A stretch of DNA of 23,622 nucleotides, from positions 1 through 23,622 of IMG/VR virus record IMGVR_UViG_3300037119_006610; one strand, written 5' to 3'. The notes beneath the pieces were generated by a model that did no database searches, was not told the DNA's origin, and worked only from the letters and a program-made list of their open reading frames with translations. Made by a program: the position numbers and the translations under genes. Below, piece by piece: positions 10,805 to 23,469 of this stretch (positions are counted from its first letter, which is position 1; each line of letters starts with the position of its first letter). The DNA comes from a virus.

Positions 10805-12018
10805 CGAGCCTCTACGGGACCGTCACCCTCGGCCGCCTCCCCGCCCTGTTCGAGGCGTTCGAGGTCACGCAGGGCGTCGACGGGCTCCTCGGCGTGTCGG
10901 TACAGGCGAGCTCGACGGCGTTGAGCACCGCGCGGGTCGAACGCTTGCGCGACGACCTCCTCGGGCTGCCCGGCAAGCTCATCCCCGTCGTGTGGTCCGA
11001 CAAGGTGTTCCTCGGCGGCTTCTACACCGTGTCGTCGGTCGACGTGAAGCACTGGTCATATCCCGGGCTCGCCGCCGCCGGCACCCGCCGCGTCTTCGGC
11101 TCCGCCGACGTGCGTTTGAAGGCGGGCGGCTACGCGAACACCGCGGACATCGAATCCCGCCTGTCGGGGGCGCAGACCCGGTCGAACGACTTCTCGGGCA
11201 CCGGGGAGATATGGCACGCCCCCCCGATCGGGCACAGCGGCTACCTCGCCGGCACCGCCGTCCCCACCGCCGTGACCCGCACGGGGGAGGACGGCGCCGT
11301 CGTCGTCTACCGCGGTCTCGCGTTCGGCGCGAACCCCCGGTGGGGCGCCACCACCTCGACGTACCCGCAGGGCCGGGTGCGGTTCATCGACTCCAACGCG
11401 GAGGAACGCAGCGGGCAGGGCGTCGCCCTCTCCCCCGTCGGGTGGGTGCTCAGCAACGGCTTGGTGCGCATCACACCGCTCGTCACGGGTGGGGTGTTCA
11501 GCGTCGACGCCTACACCGGCGGCGCGTGGCGGGCGAAGGCGTGGGACGTCCTCGACAACGCCGCGACGATCACCCCCGTCGACGGCGTCGACATCCTCCA
11601 GAACGACTACGAAACCGTCGTCGTCCGGCTCTACAAGGGACAGTCGCAGGGGCGCGTGACCGTCGACCTCACCCTCCGCCGCGGCTCGCGCTTCGTGGAG
11701 CTGTTCGTCCAGTCCGACACCTCGGCGACGTTGAAGATCGTCAAAGCGGCGACGGAGGCCGGGACGAACGCGACCGCCGGGATGGTCATCGCCAGCAGCA
11801 ACGACGCCGACGGCAACAAGTACGTCGTCGGGAGCAGCAAGAGCTTCACGGCGGACACCGCCATCGGCGGCGTCAGCAAGGCGTCGGTGACCGCGCTGGA
11901 CGCGTTCGTGGGGGTCGTGGCCGGCGGCACCGGCGCCGTCACCGGCGACCAGGCCGCGAACCTGTTCGCGCAGTACCTCGGCAGCTCGACGGAGGTCGTC
12001 GCCGCCGTGCGCCGCTAA
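10801..12018 (+). CDS. Distal tail protein / minor tail protein
   Basis: 405 aa, GTG start in a GTGA overlap with the tape measure stop. The N-terminal ~130 residues (TLGRLPALFEAFEVTQGV, then LRDDLLGLPGKLIPVVWSD and VFLGGFYTVSSVDVKHW) look like the ring-forming domain of distal tail proteins. The remainder is beta-rich with Thr, Gly and Val (GRVTVDLTLRRGSRFVELFV), like the carbohydrate-binding sandwich seen in evolved Dit proteins. Dit forms the hub beneath the tail tube and anchors the hub/fibre gene that follows. The call rests on gene order plus fold pattern. The stop overlaps the convergent minus-strand gene by 4 nt. Confidence 0.7.
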   Translation: MTSLYGTVTLGRLPALFEAFEVTQGVDGLLGVSVQASSTALSTARVERLRDDLLGLPGKLIPVVWSDKVFLGGFYTVSSVDVKHWSYPGLAAAGTRRVFGSADVRLKAGGYANTADIESRLSGAQTRSNDFSGTGEIWHAPPIGHSGYLAGTAVPTAVTRTGEDGAVVVYRGLAFGANPRWGATTSTYPQGRVRFIDSNAEERSGQGVALSPVGWVLSNGLVRITPLVTGGVFSVDAYTGGAWRAKAWDVLDNAATITPVDGVDILQNDYETVVVRLYKGQSQGRVTVDLTLRRGSRFVELFVQSDTSATLKIVKAATEAGTNATAGMVIASSNDADGNKYVVGSSKSFTADTAIGGVSKASVTALDAFVGVVAGGTGAVTGDQAANLFAQYLGSSTEVVAAVRR

Positions 12019-12218
12019 CGCCTCGCGTCCTCGGCGATCCGCTCCAAGCGGAGCGCTGCCTCCGTGAGCGGGGCGCGGAGGTCGAGCATCGCCGTCGCCG
12101 TATCGGTGACCTCACCCGAACTGCGGAGTGTCCCGGCGACCCGCTCGATCCCGGCGGCGAGCGCGAGCAACGCGCTGCGGAGCTGTTCATAGTTCGGCGG
12201 CGCTGTCACGCCGGGCAT
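12015..12218 (-). CDS. Lone 67-aa antisense gene inside the tail operon (moron candidate)
   Basis: ATG at 12218, TAG at 12015-12017. The product is a compact helical protein: PPNYEQLRSALLALAAGIER, then SSGEVTDTATAMLDLRAPL and EAALRLERIAED. It has balanced composition with hydrophobics spaced every 3-4 residues, unlike Arg/Pro-rich shadow frames. The plus strand offers no credible gene between 12019 and 12251, so this small gene explains an otherwise empty 230-nt gap between two tail genes. It ends exactly at the distal tail gene with a 4-nt tail-to-tail overlap. I see no strong Shine-Dalgarno (only GTGGGA near the start) and no clear promoter. I do not recognise a family; it could be a moron, a small regulator or an antisense-encoded structural peptide. 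Confidence 0.6.
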   Translation of the reverse strand: MPGVTAPPNYEQLRSALLALAAGIERVAGTLRSSGEVTDTATAMLDLRAPLTEAALRLERIAEDARR

Positions 12219-12251
12219 CGTCCCACGACCGACCGACTGAGCGGAGGGCGC

Positions 12252-15200
12252 GTGCCGATCACGGAGTCGTTGCAGGCGCTCGGGCAGTGGTCGATCAATT
12301 TGAAGGCGACGACGCCGAAGTCGGTGACCGACGCGATCCTCGACCTCGGGCACGTCTGCGTGCACGCGGCGCGGCAGAACCCGCGGATCAGCGGCGACGC
12401 GCTCCTCGCCAGCGCCCGCTATGTGGGGGTCGTGCGGACCCGCGAGTTCACCGACGACACCCGGCGGCTCGGCGGGCCGGGGATGGCGTTCTGGCTCGGC
12501 GACGAGGACGACAAGGGCTCCGTCTTCGAGACGGCGGTGAACCTCTCGGGGAGCAGCTTCATCACCGGCGTCACGAACCTCCTCCCCGCCTCCGGGTCGA
12601 TCACCGCCGGGACGATCAACACCGTGAGCGGGACGCCGTTCACCGGGTCGTTCGTGTTCATGTCGCCGAAGAAGGCGCTGAGCCAGTTCTGCGGCTACTG
12701 GTCGAACACGTTCGGGCAGGCGGAGTGGCAGGTCACCGGCGACGGGAAGCTCAACGCCGGCACCGTCGACCAGCTCTACGTCACCACGCCGACGGCGGTC
12801 ATCGCCCGGAAGATGAGCGGGCAGGACATGACGCTCCGCGGCCTCACTGGCAGCGCGGAGGCCACGAGCGACTTGTCGGAGTTCAGCACCCGCGTCGTCG
12901 TACTCGCGCAGGGCGAAGGCGACGCGACGGCGATCGGGCAGGCCAACATCTCCGGGGGGTTGAACCCGTACAAGGACATCCACGGCAACACCGCGGTCCT
13001 CACCCGCATCGTCTCCGCGAGCGACGTGGAGGCGACGAACGCGGACCCGCTGGCGCAGCTGCAACTGAACCGGTTCCTCCGCGCGAAGCGCACGTTGAAG
13101 GTCAACACCAGTGAGGTCGACATCGACGGGGCGTTCCGCGTCGGCGACTTCGTGTGGGTGTGGGACCCCGACAGCGGCATGGTCGACACCGCGGTGCCGG
13201 CCGCCGAAGTCATGTTCCGGGGGCACCGGCTCAACCCGCTGAAGGTGCGCGTCACGGAGCTGACGTGGCCGGTCAGCCGCGGCATGGGCGTCGCCTACCG
13301 CGACTACAACAACCAGTGGATCGACCTGACGGACTACCTCGAACCGGAGGAGAGCTCGACGGCGATCACCGTCGGGTCGGACCCGCGCGGGTTGCTGACG
13401 GACCTGACGGAGTCCGTCGGCTCACGGCCGAAGCCCGACGCGAGCATCCCCGCCGCGCCGGGCTGGACGCTGCCGTTCACCGTCAGCTCGTATCTCCCCA
13501 CGTCGGGGATCACGCGGGCGCAGGTCGCGGTGCGCTGGGCTCAGCCGCTGAACACCGACGGCACCCCGATCCTCGACGGCGCCTACTACGAGTTGCAGTG
13601 GCGCACCACCGACCACCTCGTCAACCCCGCCACCTGGGCGGTCGCGAGCGCCTACGTGTGGAGCCAACTCAACACGTGGGACGCGCCCGAACCCCCCGTC
13701 GCGTCGGGGCCGTGGACGGCGACGAGCGTCGGCTTCGACCTGAACTCGTTCACGGTCGCGGACCTCACCCCCGGCTCGTCGATCGAACTGCGGATCAGGG
13801 CGGTCGACACCGCGTCGCCCCCGAACCTCGGCGGCTGGTCCTCCAGCTCGACGGTGACGTTGCCGACCGACCCGTTCCCCCCGAGCCCCCCGGCGCCCCC
13901 GAGCATCGTGTCGTCGCTGCTCGGTGTGCAGATGACGCACACCCTCGGCCGCGCATCGGGCGGCACCTACAACCTGGAGGCCGACCTCGGGTGGCTGGAG
14001 CTGCACGGGGACCTCGACCCATTGTTCGCGCCGAGCGCGGCGACGCTGCTGGGGAAGGCCATCGCGAACCGGGGGATGATCGCCGCCGGCACCCCCGTCG
14101 TCGAGTCGTTCAAGGTCGACCAGGTGCTGTTCCCGACGCAGTTCAAGGTCATCGCCGTCGACCTCAACGGCAACCGGAGCCTGCCCTCCACGGCCTCGTC
14201 GGCGACGCCCGGGCTCATCAACTCGCAGTACGTGTCGGAACTGACCGCGTCGAAGATCAGCGCGGGGACGATCCTCGCGGCGCTGCTCATCGGCGGCAGC
14301 ATCAGCACGGCCGCCGCCGGGCAGCGCACGAGGATGGATGTCTCCGGGTTGCACACCTACGACTCGTCGAACACCCTGCTCGTCGACCTCAACAGCGACA
14401 CGAACACGAACCTGCTGACCGGCATCTTCCAGACCGCGCTGACCGGCACCCGCGTCGTCATCCCCACCACCGGTGAGATCAATTTCTATCCGTCGTCGGG
14501 CGCGAACTACTCGCGGCTCAACTTCATCGGCACCACCGACATCTCGGTGCGCGGCCCGCTCAACGGCTCCGGCCGCTCCGGTCGGATGAACGCCAGCTCG
14601 ACGAACGTCGCCATGACGTTCTGCGACGAGGACACCCTCGCCACCGGCGGATTGTTCACGTTCCTGACGATGACGCAAACCGACGTCCTGATGATCGCCC
14701 CGACCACGACGTTCGCGATCGACGGGATGAGCGCGCACCCCCCGGCGACGACCCGGCTGATCCAGTTCTGCACGAACGACAGCAGCAACGCCAACATCAG
14801 CGACAGCTTTATGATCTACAACCGGCGGGCGTCGGGCGGCGGGTCGAACATGCTCGCCCCGTCGCAGGGCACCGGGTTCGCGTTCTCCGGCGGCGTGATG
14901 TACTGCCGCAACGGCACCGACACCGGCAACGGCAACTTCGAGGCCCTCACCCTTTCTCAGCCGTCGTCGCGGGCGGTGAAGCGGAACCTCCGAGACATCG
15001 ACTGGGCCGGCGTCAAGGCCATCGACCTGATCACCCGCGTGAAGTCGCAGGAGTACGAATACCTCGTCGAGGCCGCCGAGGTCGAGACCCCCCGCCCCCA
15101 GTTCGTGCCCGGTGTGACCCGCCGCGTGCCCCGCTGGGCGGCGGACGGCACAACCCCCGTCCTCGACGCCGACGGGAATCAGATCGTCGACACGGCGCCC

Positions 15201-19075: not shown

Positions 19076-19450
19076 TCAGGGATAGATCGGCATGGTCGTC
19101 GCCTCGCCGAAGCCGGGCCGGTGCGCGAGCGGCTGCGCGAGGAGCAGCAGCGTCGGGTCGAGCGCGTGGATGAACCCGGGGTCGACGAGCGTCGTCCGCG
19201 TCGGCAAACCGACGGCGTGCTCCGGCGCCCACACGACGCACTCATGGTGCCCGGTGTGCAATTCCACGATCTGCCGCCGCGCCTCGCACTCCGCGAGGAC
19301 CCGCGCCGCGTCCCAGTTCGCGATGTGCAACGCCAGCGTCCACGCCTCGATCGGCCAGTCCAGGTCGACCGTTAGCGGCACCGCCGCGGCGACGGCGAGT
19401 CGCTTATCCTCCGCGATCTGTTCGAGCATCCACGCCGGCAGGTCCGTCAC
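19076..19450 (-). CDS. DUF6221-like protein
   Basis: 124 aa from GTG 19450 in a GTGA overlap with the upstream gene; the residues before it in frame are Arg/Pro-rich and not credible. Marks of the DUF6221 family of actinomycetes and their phages are present: an early MLEQIAEDKRLAVAAA helix, ALHIANWDAARVLAECEARR, then QIVELHTGH and the LLLLAQPLAHRPGF ending (family pattern HIARHDPARVL.EVEAKRRI ... LRLLALPYA.HP.Y). Function is unknown for the whole family. The usual central Cys pair is reduced to a single Cys here (HECVVW). Confidence 0.75.
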   Translation of the reverse strand: MTDLPAWMLEQIAEDKRLAVAAAVPLTVDLDWPIEAWTLALHIANWDAARVLAECEARRQIVELHTGHHECVVWAPEHAVGLPTRTTLVDPGFIHALDPTLLLLAQPLAHRPGFGEATTMPIYP

Positions 19451-19863
19451 GGCGTCGGCGCCTGGGTGAAGTCCGGGTGCTGCCCGGCGATGTGCCGCGC
19501 GAGGTTCGCGAAGTGCCGGTGACACCCATCGACCGGGCACGTCCCCGCCGCCGCGCGGTTGCGCTGCCGGGTCACGACCGCCCGCGTTGCGCGTAGGGAC
19601 CGCGCCGTCGACTCCAGCTGGTCCTGCGTCGCGCCGAGCGCCGCGTAGGCGTCGTCCCGGTGCTGCCGGAGTCGCTCTGCCGTCCGCCGCAGCCGCGCGT
19701 TCTCATTGTCGCTGTAGTGGATCTTGTGGCCGTTGACGCAGTAGAAGTCCTGGCCGTCCTGCTTGCGGTCGGCGATGCGGCTGCGCTCCATGCCGAACCA
19801 CACCCCGCAGTTCCCGCATTCGATGGCGTCGATGACCAGGGCGACCCGCACACTCGTCGTCAC
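19447..19863 (-). CDS. Protein with N-terminal zinc ribbon, coiled coil and C-terminal CCHH-like motif
   Basis: 138 aa from GTG 19863, with AGGGGA 6-8 nt upstream. Three parts are visible: an N-terminal CGNCGVWFGMERSR ... FYCVNGHKIHYSDNE zinc ribbon (~15-50); a basic helical middle (ENARLRRTAERLRQHRDDAY and onwards, ~52-100); and CPVDGCHRHFANLARHIAGQH, a finger-like motif (~108-130). This architecture recurs in actinophage genomes under names such as HNH-like or zinc finger protein. DNA or RNA binding is likely from the motifs but undemonstrated. It is coupled to the downstream gene by GTGA. Confidence 0.8.
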   Translation of the reverse strand: MTTSVRVALVIDAIECGNCGVWFGMERSRIADRKQDGQDFYCVNGHKIHYSDNENARLRRTAERLRQHRDDAYAALGATQDQLESTARSLRATRAVVTRQRNRAAAGTCPVDGCHRHFANLARHIAGQHPDFTQAPTP

Positions 19864-19959: not shown

Positions 19960-20196
19960 TCACCCCTGCCACCCGCGCGAGCGGGCGAGCCGCAGCGCCT
20001 GCTTCGCCACCGGCCCCACCTGGCAGTCCATCGTCGGCGACTTGCAATAGTCGCACCGCCCGTCGACCTGCCGGTGGCGCTCCGCGATCGCCTGCGTCGC
20101 CTCCGGGTACTGCGTCATCAGCTCCAGCAGCTCAGCCTTCAACGCCCGGTCGCGGGCGCGGTCCTCCCGCTCCCGCTCCTCGCGGCCCGTGACCAT
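19960..20196 (-). CDS. 78-aa protein with CxxC motif
   Basis: ATG 20196, preceded by a GGGGCGG stretch that could serve as a weak ribosome binding site. A very charged N-terminal helix (REEREREDRARDRALKAELL) leads to LMTQYPEATQAIAERHRQVD and then GRCDYCKSPTMDCQVGPVAK, which holds three Cys and may bind metal or act as a knuckle. The C-terminus is basic. It is the first gene after the repeat array on the minus strand. No known family; likely a small nucleic-acid-binding or regulatory protein. Confidence 0.6.
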   Translation of the reverse strand: MVTGREEREREDRARDRALKAELLELMTQYPEATQAIAERHRQVDGRCDYCKSPTMDCQVGPVAKQALRLARSRGWQG

Positions 20197-20229: not shown

Positions 20230-20376
20230 AACCCGTCACCAGGTGACGGGCTCGGGCAACCCGTCACCCCCGTCTCCACCCGCCCTGACCTGCGCGGAGG
20301 GGTGGAGACGGGGTGGAGACGGGGTGGAGACGGGTTGCGGCCCGTGGAGACGGGCTGGTGACGGGTTAGTGACGGG
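20230..20376. repeat. Iteron-like array: GTGACGGG and GTGGAGACGGG motifs with a 19-bp palindrome
   Basis: The 181-nt gap 20197-20377 holds no gene but many copies of two related motifs. GTGACGGG occurs at 20243, 20358 and 20369 and inverted at 20232 and 20260. GTGGAGACGGG (the same octamer with GAG inserted) occurs at 20302, 20313, 20324 and 20344 and inverted at 20269; the first three are head-to-tail 11-bp units. The inverted and direct octamers at 20232-20250 form a perfect 19-bp palindrome, CCCGTCACCAGGTGACGGG. Direct repeats plus an operator-like dyad suggest a binding region for a replication, transfer or partition protein, or an operator for the following genes. Confidence 0.75.
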
Positions 20377-20377
20377 C

Positions 20378-20833
20378 TCATACCCGCCCCCCTCGGGCGA
20401 GCTTCCGACCCACTGAGCCGATGTCGCCGCTGTGTTTGCGGACCATCCGGCGGGCCTCGCGCCGCGCTTCGCTCATCGACATGCCCTCGCGCCGGCACGC
20501 CTTCCGCGCGAACTTCCGGTCGCTGGCCGCGCCCCGCGAACCCGTCGCCGCCTCACCGGCGAGGGACATCACGGCGTCGCTGCGGGCGTCCCGCGGGTAC
20601 ACCTCCGAGTAGCCGTTCGAGTCGTCGAGGAGGACCGCGCCGACGGACCGGCCGCCGAGCCGCCGGTTCACCACGAGGTGCGCCGCCTCATGCTTCGCGG
20701 ACCGTCGCCGCTCCCCGTTCGGGTTGCGGGTCGGCGGCGCGCTCCGCACGCTGCGGACGCTGCGCGAGCCCCCACCGCCGAACAGCTTCATCAGGATGAA
20801 CGCGCCGACGAGCGCGATGATCGCCTGGCTCAC
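20378..20833 (-). CDS. Membrane-anchored mini-protease of M41 (FtsH peptidase) type, no AAA domain
   Basis: 151 aa from GTG 20833 (GTGA overlap). Residues 3-18 form one TM helix (QAIIALVGAFILMKLF), followed by a Gly/Ser/Arg linker. From residue 45 the sequence follows the FtsH zinc peptidase: AKHEAAHLVV gives the HExxH motif (His48, Glu49, His52), then GYSEVYP, AVMSLAGEAATG, and GAASDRKFARKACRREGMS, where Asp105 lines up with the third zinc ligand of FtsH (pattern TGA.NDL..AT..AR.MV...GMS). The spacing from HExxH to Asp (57 residues) is shorter than in FtsH, and the AAA ATPase is absent. It likely cuts a membrane or small protein partner, perhaps aided by another ATPase. Motif-level call; activity unproven. 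Confidence 0.7.
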   Translation of the reverse strand: MSQAIIALVGAFILMKLFGGGGSRSVRSVRSAPPTRNPNGERRRSAKHEAAHLVVNRRLGGRSVGAVLLDDSNGYSEVYPRDARSDAVMSLAGEAATGSRGAASDRKFARKACRREGMSMSEARREARRMVRKHSGDIGSVGRKLARGGRV

Positions 20834-21063
20834 GAGAGGTCGTCCGTGAAGCGGGTCTTGCCACGGCTCACCCGGTAGCTCCCCCGCCACTCGCGGGCGC
20901 CCTCGACGACCCGGTCGACGCGCGACTGAGCCATGTCGGAGTCCACCCACCGGTCGTAGATTTCGTTCATCGCCGCCTGGTCGCCCTCGCGTTCGGCCTT
21001 GGCGTAGGTGTTGCGCAGGTTCGTCGTCAGCCCGCGCTGCGCCGCCCGGCTGAGCTTGCTCAT
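20830..21063 (-). CDS. 77-aa helical protein in the translocase operon
   Basis: ATG 21063, overlapping the upstream TAA by one base (TAATG), and ending in a GTGA overlap with the protease gene. The sequence is basic at the start (SKLSRAAQRGLTTNLRNTY), then acidic and helical (AEREGDQAAMNEIYDRWVDS, SRVDRVVEGAREW) and basic again (RVSRGKTRF). No Cys, no TM. Tight coupling to both neighbours suggests it works with them, possibly as an adaptor or substrate of the protease; that is inference. No family recognised. Confidence 0.65.
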   Translation of the reverse strand: MSKLSRAAQRGLTTNLRNTYAKAEREGDQAAMNEIYDRWVDSDMAQSRVDRVVEGAREWRGSYRVSRGKTRFTDDLS

Positions 21064-21278
21064 TAGTGCCCCCTCGGGCAGGACTCGCCCGGCGCGTAGC
21101 TGAACCCGCACGGCGACCCCCGGTGGTCGACGGGGCACTGCGTGCACTTGCACGGTGACTTCTCACACTTGACGCAGACCAGTTTGCTCGCGGGGATCTT
21201 CCCGCTCGCGTAGTCGTCGAAGTTCGGCGACCACTTCGCGCCGAGCGCCTTCATCGCCTTCTCAGCCCTACTCGCCAT
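21063..21278 (-). CDS. 71-aa Cys-rich mini-protein
   Basis: ATG 21278 is chosen over upstream codons because AGGAGGAGG lies about 10 nt before it. The N-terminal half is a basic helix plus a short turn (RAEKAMKALGAKWSPNFDDY). The C-terminal half packs seven Cys and two His into 37 residues: CVKCEKSPCKCTQCPVDHRG, then SPCGFSYAPGESCPRGH. Two structural zincs are plausible. It resembles no named zinc ribbon I can identify. The operon context suggests a nucleic-acid or translocase partner. Confidence 0.65.
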   Translation of the reverse strand: MASRAEKAMKALGAKWSPNFDDYASGKIPASKLVCVKCEKSPCKCTQCPVDHRGSPCGFSYAPGESCPRGH

Positions 21279-21297: not shown

Positions 21298-23469
21298 TTA
21301 TCGGTGCATTTCGATGACCGTGCCACCGGCCCCGTCGTTGCGGAGCCGTTCAACCACTGAGCGGATGTCCGCCGTGCGGTACCCGCGGACCTGGTCGCGT
21401 TCCCCGGGCATCCGCCCCTTCCCCGGCGCCAACCCGATCGGGTCGGCCTTCATCCCCGCGGCGAGCGCCTCCGCCGTCAGCCCGAGTTCCTCGACGAGCT
21501 CAGCGGTCGGCACGAACGTCCGCCCGTCCGGGTCGAGGTCGTCGCCGAGGTGCCCGACGACGGAGCGCAGCGGCTCGGGCAGGTCCGGGTTGTCGATGAC
21601 CTCAGCGTCGAGCGCCGGCAGCGCGTCGGGCTCGGGCTCGGCGGCCTCGTCGAGCGCCGCCCGCGCCTGCGCCACGTCGAGCGCCTGGAACTGACCGGCG
21701 GCGTCACCGGCGAGGGTGCGGGTCTCCTCCCGCAGCGTCCGCCCCCGCTGACACAACGCGGTCCACTCGCGGCCCGTCATCCAGTCGACCTGCACGGTGG
21801 GGAACCCCGCGTCGACGGCCGCCAGCTCCCCATCCGGGCGGAGGATACCGACGCCCAGGTGGGTGCCGAGGAGCAGCGAAGCGTCGTATCCGCGGGTGTT
21901 CATCTGCTCCCCGAGGATGATGTTCGAGTCGCGCCAGTCCATCACCTTCAACGCGAACCGGTGACCCATCTGGCTCCGCAACCCCGTCGGCAGAGTCACC
22001 GAATCCGGGCGTTGCGTTTGGAGCAGGAGAACGACGCCGGCGCTCGGCGCGGTCTTCGCCAGGTAGGTGAGGAGCGTCGCGATGTTCTGCCCGACGGTCG
22101 CCTTCTTCCCCCGCTCCGGCCAGCCGGGGGCGCCGCAGTCGGTGTAATTCTGCAGCTCGTCGATGTTGACCACGGTGATCGGGTAGCCGTTGCGGCTCAT
22201 CTCCCGCGTGATCTTCCCGTCGGGGCACTCGTCGTCGTCCAGCTCATCCATCCGGTCGAAGCGGCCCATCACGTCGAGCTGCAACCCGGCGAGGGCGTCG
22301 CGGAGCCGGATGCACTCGGCGTCGCTGTGGCCCTTCCCGTAGCGGTAGGCGATGTCCTTGATCGCCTTCCACGCGCGGTCACCCTTCCCGTTCCAGCAAT
22401 AGATGCGGACGTGGGGGTCGAGCACGTAGGGGCTGATCGCCACGCGAGCGGTAAACGTCTTCCCCTTCCTCGGCTGGGCGCCGATCAGCAGCGACGACCA
22501 CACCAGCGACAGCGGGACCGGCCGGTCCCGCTTGTCGTGGCCGAACGGCGCCGGCTTCCACACATCCCACCGCTCCGCGCGGGCGAGCGCGAACGGGTGC
22601 GGAGCCCCACCGAACGGGTCCTTCGGCGACGCCCACTGGCTGACCCGCCCGGCGTGTCCCTCGTCGCCGCGCACCCGTTCGATGGACAGGCAGATTTCGT
22701 CGAGCGCGAGCGCCGACGCGACGGCCTCCGCCTCGCGCACCACGTCGCTGGCCTTCACCCCCGGCGGCAAATCGAACACGATCAACCAGCCCTTGCCGTC
22801 CCAGTAGGCGTGCTTGACGAGGAGCAGCACCTGATCCTTCTTGATGAGCTTCGCGTGCCGATACGCGTCGTTGAGCATCTCCGGGTTCATCGTCCAGCCG
22901 AAGCCGCGCCCCCCGAGGACGGGCTTCCGGCCGGGGGTGCCGTCCTTCGCGCGCCCGAGGAGCATCAGCGCGATCAGGAGTGCGGCGAGCGCCGGCCACA
23001 GCACGAGCGGCGCCGTCGCGGGGAACACGAACCGCAGCAGCAACCCGACCACGACGAGGGCGAGCAGCGCGAGCCCGGTGCCCTTCCAGCGGCGCCGCGA
23101 CGCCTCCCGCAGCCCGGGGCCCTTCTCGTGGAGCTTGTTGTCCTTCCGGGCGTGCTCCCGCTCCTCGTAGAGGACGATGAAATGCCACCACAACCGGGCG
23201 GCGACAACCACGCCGCGGGCGACGGCGCGGGGCATCGTCGTGACGGGGGCTCGGGCCGAGCGGATCGCGAGGTCGCGGCGCGCGGCCTTCGCGTCGGGCA
23301 CCAGCGACGTCGGCTTGAACACCACGGGGACGCGGGGTGCTCGCGCCCAGCGCTGCGTGAGCGTCTTCGGCGACTCGTCGACGATCTCCCCCTCGACGAC
23401 CGGGGCGGGCTCGGGGAGGTTCTCCGGCCGGACCTCCAGCTCAGCGCCCGGCGGCTGCGGCTCGGTCAT
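21298..23469 (-). CDS. FtsK/SpoIIIE/TraB-type DNA translocase
   Basis: 723 aa from ATG 23469, one base overlapping the upstream stop. The N-terminal ~85 residues are Pro-rich; two TM helices lie at ~131-149 and ~153-171. The motor domain starts near residue 300: Walker A GAQPRKGKTF at 330-339 (Lys337), PHVRIYCWNGKGD, Walker B ITVVNIDELQN with Asp437-Glu438, and TQRPDSVTLPTGLRSQMGHR. This order (PR-GKTF, DE-Q, TQRPD..SLPTG) is the signature of actinomycete conjugation translocases such as TraSA/TraB and of their phage homologues. The C-terminal part has VPTAELVEELGLTAEALAAG and RGYRTADIRSVVERL, a probable winged helix for DNA recognition. It pumps double-stranded DNA; membrane anchoring fits cell-to-cell transfer. 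Confidence 0.88.
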   Translation of the reverse strand: MTEPQPPGAELEVRPENLPEPAPVVEGEIVDESPKTLTQRWARAPRVPVVFKPTSLVPDAKAARRDLAIRSARAPVTTMPRAVARGVVVAARLWWHFIVLYEEREHARKDNKLHEKGPGLREASRRRWKGTGLALLALVVVGLLLRFVFPATAPLVLWPALAALLIALMLLGRAKDGTPGRKPVLGGRGFGWTMNPEMLNDAYRHAKLIKKDQVLLLVKHAYWDGKGWLIVFDLPPGVKASDVVREAEAVASALALDEICLSIERVRGDEGHAGRVSQWASPKDPFGGAPHPFALARAERWDVWKPAPFGHDKRDRPVPLSLVWSSLLIGAQPRKGKTFTARVAISPYVLDPHVRIYCWNGKGDRAWKAIKDIAYRYGKGHSDAECIRLRDALAGLQLDVMGRFDRMDELDDDECPDGKITREMSRNGYPITVVNIDELQNYTDCGAPGWPERGKKATVGQNIATLLTYLAKTAPSAGVVLLLQTQRPDSVTLPTGLRSQMGHRFALKVMDWRDSNIILGEQMNTRGYDASLLLGTHLGVGILRPDGELAAVDAGFPTVQVDWMTGREWTALCQRGRTLREETRTLAGDAAGQFQALDVAQARAALDEAAEPEPDALPALDAEVIDNPDLPEPLRSVVGHLGDDLDPDGRTFVPTAELVEELGLTAEALAAGMKADPIGLAPGKGRMPGERDQVRGYRTADIRSVVERLRNDGAGGTVIEMHR

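Follow-up and report, generated by a model that had tools for sequence, protein, structure and literature searches.

FtsH is an ATP-driven machine, and an M41 domain that stands alone, and recurs as such in phages, raises the question of what the cutting domain does without its motor. Such a domain is encoded in virus record IMGVR_UViG_3300037119_006610, which derives from an uncultured, GC-rich and probably actinobacterial phage. The window, i.e. the whole 23.6-kb stretch of DNA that was analyzed, has a GC content of about 70-74%, and genes for phage tape-measure, endolysin and holin proteins are found on its plus strand. The gene of interest lies on the opposite strand:

20378..20833, minus strand: membrane-anchored, motorless M41-type peptidase, 151 aa, GTG start

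Coding potential and sequence motifs

The initial annotation had described a 151-aa protein carrying HEAAH, GYSEVYP and SLAGEAATG, and these motifs are indeed present at residues 48-52, 74-80 and 90-98, respectively. The further motif quoted there, ASDRKFARKACRREGMS, was recovered at residues 103-119. GC content by codon position is 0.70/0.59/0.92 in this frame and resembles that of the operon neighbors on the same strand, whereas an overlapping plus-strand ORF yields 0.91/0.57/0.72, unlike the operon genes. An artefact of GC-rich DNA was ruled out by GC content at the third codon position, conservation across relatives and the predicted fold. A DNA-identical copy of the gene is present in a second contig, IMGVR_UViG_3300037071_006542.

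An M41 domain beyond the reach of curated models

When the 151-aa protein was searched alone against Pfam, PHROG and NCBIfam, no model recognized it. The cut-off of Pfam PF01434 was not reached and no match appeared even at E 10, placing the protein as a distant relative beyond the cover of the curated model. Sequence searches of the PDB gave weak matches only. An hhalign comparison of the lone protein with FtsH was likewise weak (15%), so that the case for its identity depends on relatives. A profile (A3) built from the 151-aa protein and a Streptomyces relative (L033) matched full-length FtsH in a set of 396 actinobacterial genomes, with a best E of 1.3e-5; the matched frames comprise 637-777 aa, and several of them were checked for GPPGTGKT and the M41 motifs. 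By hhalign, the family profile matched FtsH with 96.6% probability (E 6.9e-10), and in this alignment Asp105 falls on the invariant Asp of FtsH. In addition, phmmer with the 151-aa protein against 10,700 ORFs detected relative L159 at E 3.5e-9, which itself matches the FtsH model TIGR01241 (E 1.9e-5).

Structure prediction led to the same family. AlphaFold2 models reached a mean pLDDT of 72.7 with four sequences and 83.5 with six, the M41 core of the latter scoring about 90-98. The elements of the model are, in order, helix 38-58, strands 62-68 and 74-79, and helices 83-97, 103-116, 120-133 and 135-148. Hence, all elements of the M41 fold are present in order: the catalytic helix, the beta hairpin, the GGxxAE-like helix, the Asp helix and the C-terminal helices. 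Structural neighbors of the six-sequence model were FtsH, YME1, AFG3L2 and FtsHi chains as well as 5IQJ, at Z 9.0-12.8, including 12.5 for 3kds_F (rmsd 2.7, 117 residues aligned), 12.0 for YME1 and 11.8 for AFG3L2. Only M41 proteins exceeded Z 9, and the best unrelated fold reached 5.5. For the first, four-sequence model the M41 neighbors scored Z 10.5-13.6 versus 4.0 for the next. Structure prediction and profile comparison thus agree in matching FtsH-type peptidases over the whole domain, and we consider the M41 fold and homology of the 151-aa protein practically certain. Neither an AAA domain nor a P-loop was found in the ORF, by sequence or with Pfam and NCBIfam. The proposal of an M41-type peptidase devoid of the AAA motor is supported by profile, fold and homologue evidence.

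Catalytic residues and membrane anchor

The following features were assigned to the 151-aa protein:

20780..20827, minus strand: residues 3-18, a predicted transmembrane helix with an Arg-rich linker after it (from hydropathy; low-confidence helix in the model)
20678..20692, minus strand: HEAAH, residues 48-52 in helix 38-58, aligned with HEAGH of FtsH
20594..20614, minus strand: GYSEVYP, residues 74-80, with strand 74-79 of the M41 beta hairpin in the model
20543..20587, minus strand: helix 83-97 containing SLAGEAA, by alignment the counterpart of the GGRxAEE helix of FtsH
20519..20521, minus strand: Asp105 in helix 103-116, aligned to the invariant Asp of FtsH and predicted to be the third zinc ligand

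HEAAH is predicted to supply two zinc-ligand His residues and the catalytic Glu. His48, Glu49 and His52 sit in the first helix of the model core and are invariant across the aligned relatives; Asp105 is located near the start of the Asp helix. G74 is likewise invariant in relatives, as are A92 and G93 in alignment A9. HExxH and the downstream Asp are retained in every aligned relative at only 26-35% identity, and the homologues lacking HExxH that would have spoken against the initial proposal were not encountered among them. From the alignment we infer that His48, His52 and Asp105 join in one metal site, and the protein is predicted to bind zinc and to be active; its catalytic competence appears quite probable.

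The anchor proposed initially, one transmembrane helix joined to the M41-type core, is in keeping with hydropathy and with the predicted helix. Residues 4-20 form the only strongly hydrophobic stretch of the protein (mean Kyte-Doolittle value 2.17). By the positive-inside rule, the Arg-rich linker that follows would place the catalytic domain in the cytoplasm, which suggests an N-out, C-in topology. N-terminal hydrophobic segments are also found in two relatives from other virus contigs (L208, 181 aa; L210, 170 aa), where they were read as two helices. No membrane helix was detected by hydropathy in relatives L033, L141 and L159, indicating that the anchor varies by lineage.

The peptidase gene shares an operon with a translocase-type ATPase

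The operon and its flanking elements comprise:

21298..23469, minus strand: TraB/FtsK-type DNA-translocase ATPase, 723 aa (phrog_1358, E 1.1e-19; alignment A1)
21063..21278, minus strand: 71-aa Cys-rich (zinc-ribbon-like) protein with the ribosome site AGGAGGAG upstream
20830..21063, minus strand: 77-aa soluble protein, overlapping the M41-like start by 4 nt (GTGA)
20232..20376, no strand: repeat array in the intergenic stretch that follows the M41-like gene; G[AT]GACGGG occurs 10 times
19960..20196, minus strand: Cys-containing protein of 78 aa on the far (downstream) side of the repeat array, a tentative member of the module

Genes on the minus strand thus follow the order FtsK-type ATPase, 71-aa protein, 77-aa protein and M41-like protein, and the repeat array comes next. 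The stop codon of the 71-aa ORF overlaps the start of the 77-aa ORF (TAATG), and the TGA of the latter overlaps the GTG of the M41-like gene (CTCGTGAGC). These two junctions make translational coupling plausible; the proposed coupling to the 77-aa gene is in keeping with the overlapping stop and start, and the operon shared with an FtsK-type ATPase with the position of the latter on the same strand. The 723-aa ATPase scored 26.4 bits with TraB model NF041214, which is below the cut-off of 800. Among annotated genes, it is closest to FtsK/SpoIIIE-domain genes carried by Streptomyces plasmids, with up to 36.5% identity, and by sequence it resembles the plasmid-transfer type (TraB) of actinobacteria. 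For the 77-aa protein no convincing family match was obtained in Pfam, PHROG or NCBIfam; acylphosphatase-like NCBIfam matches were dismissed as far below cut-off.

The repeat array spans 145 bp with mostly 11-bp spacing and includes an inverted pair at 20232-20250. The pattern GNGACGGG has 21 matches in the whole window. The array could possibly represent iterons, an operator or a TraB-recognition (clt-like) site. Further downstream (19076-19863), the minus strand encodes a DUF6221 protein and a 138-aa phrog_33336 protein with Cys/His motifs. In the sister contig, an XRE-type regulator was recognized by eye beyond the FtsK gene.

Relatives and their genomic neighborhoods

Relatives were collected by several routes. 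L033, a protein of 126 aa from Streptomyces wuyuanensis with the arrangement HEAAH...CSD, was found by scanning with the neighboring ATPase, i.e. through TraB. The A3 profile detected an M41-only protein (L126/L141) at E 2.6e-14 among 395 genomes of the family of the Streptomyces carrying L033. L159, L208 and L210 came from motif scans of virus contigs, and a degenerate motif-spacing pattern yielded two more distant M41-only proteins (L022 and L018). Many chance ORFs in wrong frames, which arose from degenerate DNA-pattern scans, were discarded. Two more scans of virus contigs, with profiles A3 and A4, returned the identical copy only, and a peptide-pattern scan of genome contigs with the 151-aa protein gave no match. 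No significant match was obtained by tblastn with the 151-aa protein and L208 against plasmids.

Most relatives adjoin a TraB/FtsK-type or similar ATPase, and three of these were not found via the ATPase. In L208, the M41-like gene is followed by genes for a small membrane protein, a DUF2637 protein and a TraB/FtsK-type ATPase. In L141, a locus found by the M41 profile, 2.3 kb separate the M41-like gene from the end of the TraB/FtsK gene. In L210/L247, the M41-like gene directly precedes a gene for a DUF2637-like protein (overlapping start/stop; assigned by eye, without a Pfam match), followed by a P-loop ATPase. The ATPase of L247 carries GSGGGKS and VLIIVDEAN, which by eye are FtsK-like Walker motifs, and was not recognized by the TraB profile or PF01580. 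In L159, the M41-like and TraB genes are far apart (83.7 kb versus 20.3 kb), and the remaining virus loci of the same motif scans gave no TraB match. Viewed from the ATPase, the peptidase was present at one of 75 actinobacterial TraB loci and absent from the other 74; TraB machines thus do without it as a rule. The surroundings of six plasmid TraB genes contained no M41-like gene. The association is thus one-sided and, at few loci, suggestive: loci with the peptidase tend to have such an ATPase nearby, but the ATPase loci seldom have the peptidase.

The relatives also occur in other settings. L033 and L141 are TraB-carrying integrated elements in Streptomyces. A lone phage tape-measure-like gene lies next to or near their M41-like gene (L033, 5398-8016, recognized by eye; L141, 7169-9079, by PF10145); in the stretches read, a primase is present and other tail or head genes were not seen. 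The 138.8-kb virus contig L247 carries two M41-like/DUF2637-like cassettes (1619-2760 and 11431-12554) about 9.8 kb apart. In L152 (582-1748, minus strand) the M41-like domain starts a longer ORF, the C-terminal part of which resembles an HK97-type prohead protease by eye and was not confirmed by Pfam. Among 83 motif-selected virus loci (L152-L232), a loose profile screen picked out about 40 short ORFs as M41/M50B-like candidates, none with an AAA motif; the group is largely unannotated, and some of its members are probably false.

Possible function and alternative explanations

On balance we favor the view that the 151-aa protein is a membrane-anchored zinc metallopeptidase with a minimal M41 domain, which most likely trims or turns over part of a TraB/FtsK-type DNA-translocation machine. 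TraB of Streptomyces plasmids acts as a hexamer that moves double-stranded DNA; it cooperates with Spd proteins of the membrane and interacts with one of them, SpdB2 (PMC4170104). In the view favored here, one N-terminal helix would tether the catalytic domain to the membrane on its cytoplasmic side. The enzyme would be ATP-independent and, because no motor supplies unfolding, would cut exposed or already unfolded segments rather than processively pulled chains. Its operon would serve TraB/FtsK-type DNA translocation in a temperate actinobacterial phage or an element resembling a phage-plasmid, and candidate substrates would be the translocase itself, the coupled 77-aa protein or a small membrane partner of the DUF2637/Spd kind. 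Arguments for and against a functional tie between the peptidase and the TraB/FtsK-type module appear to us evenly balanced, and that the substrate itself lies within this module is a tentative suggestion. It is conceivable, if rather doubtful, that TraB/FtsK modules of actinobacterial phages and of phage-plasmid hybrids contain motorless membrane-anchored M41 peptidases as a distinct part that has escaped description, and that these gate or reset the channel by cutting one of its membrane parts.

The protease might instead serve phage development, destroying a repressor, an anti-sigma factor or a host membrane protein and thereby steering lysogeny or excluding other phages, much as host FtsH destroys lambda CII. 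The tape-measure, endolysin and holin genes of the window, the regulator in the sister contig and the position of L159 in a prophage-like region with no TraB gene nearby would all suit such a role. However, the operons of the closest membrane-anchored relatives also encode translocase-type ATPases and DUF2637-like proteins, and the elements harboring L033 and L141 carry TraB, and we regard a developmental role as unlikely. Less likely still is an action through host FtsH, in which the small protein would dock into the ring or replace ring subunits, redirecting or poisoning it. It shares the fold of the FtsH peptidase domain, along with a probable membrane location and cytoplasmic orientation, but the stretch from HExxH to the Asp is about 20 residues shorter, and its own catalytic residues have been retained even in divergent relatives, although a pure decoy could do without them.

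Two further alternatives concern the chemistry. Pseudo-proteases of the M41 fold exist, namely plant FtsHi (title of PMC8197885), and a catalytically dead scaffold would have this precedent; retention of HExxH and the third-ligand Asp at such low identity nevertheless makes it very improbable here. A site-2-like (M50B) membrane peptidase in place of an M41 relative would account for the shared HExxH and for the weak to moderate scores of several relatives with PF13398 (Peptidase_M50B). Yet the structures that match are M41 enzymes, with agreement along the entire domain and its C-terminal helices, the third-ligand Asp is in the M41 position and the catalytic helix is too little hydrophobic for membrane embedding, leaving this assignment with hardly any credibility.

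Comparison with known systems

The initial annotation knew of no characterized phage protease of this shape. This holds insofar as tblastn with five family members found no significant match in 50,697 phage records, and a literature search of partial coverage found no description of a motorless M41 protein in phages or of a membrane-anchored one in a translocase operon. It does not extend to the M41-only shape as such, since uncultured phages have M41-only proteins and one from Vibrio cholerae (5IQJ) has been solved. M41-only proteins are already known as such and appear to be common in virus contigs; since family databases miss the 151-aa protein, proteins of its kind are hidden among "hypothetical" phage genes.

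With FtsH, YME1 and AFG3L2 the 151-aa protein shares the M41 fold over the whole domain, HExxH and the downstream Asp, the C-terminal helices, an N-terminal anchor and, probably, a cytoplasmic catalytic domain. It differs from FtsH-type proteases in lacking the AAA+ unfoldase, in having one membrane helix rather than two and in its length of 151 versus about 640 aa. The distance from the second His to the Asp is 53 residues, compared to 72 for the FtsH listed first in alignment A7. The Vibrio cholerae protein 5IQJ (about 131 aa, function unassigned) is likewise an M41 domain alone without AAA (Z 12.8, rmsd 2.2, 100 residues); its solved chain has no membrane anchor, unlike the 151-aa protein. 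A "Peptidase M41 domain-containing protein" of an uncultured Caudovirales phage (A0A6J5RJ76, 214 aa) also comprises M41 without AAA and superimposes with a TM-score of 0.66 by query length; its assignment comes from a predicted structure and the database name, and its similarity to the 151-aa protein is low.

The module as a whole shares with the TraB/Spd genes of Streptomyces a TraB/FtsK-type ATPase in an operon with small proteins and a repeat array nearby. The available part of PMC4170104 describes no M41 peptidase among the Spd proteins and characterizes the partner proteins of the actinobacterial DNA transfer system as largely uncharacterized. In contrast to the Streptomyces genes, the TraB/FtsK module studied here lies on a phage contig that also encodes tail and lysis functions. 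If the proposed link is true, a protease would join the single-protein double-stranded DNA transfer system of actinobacteria.
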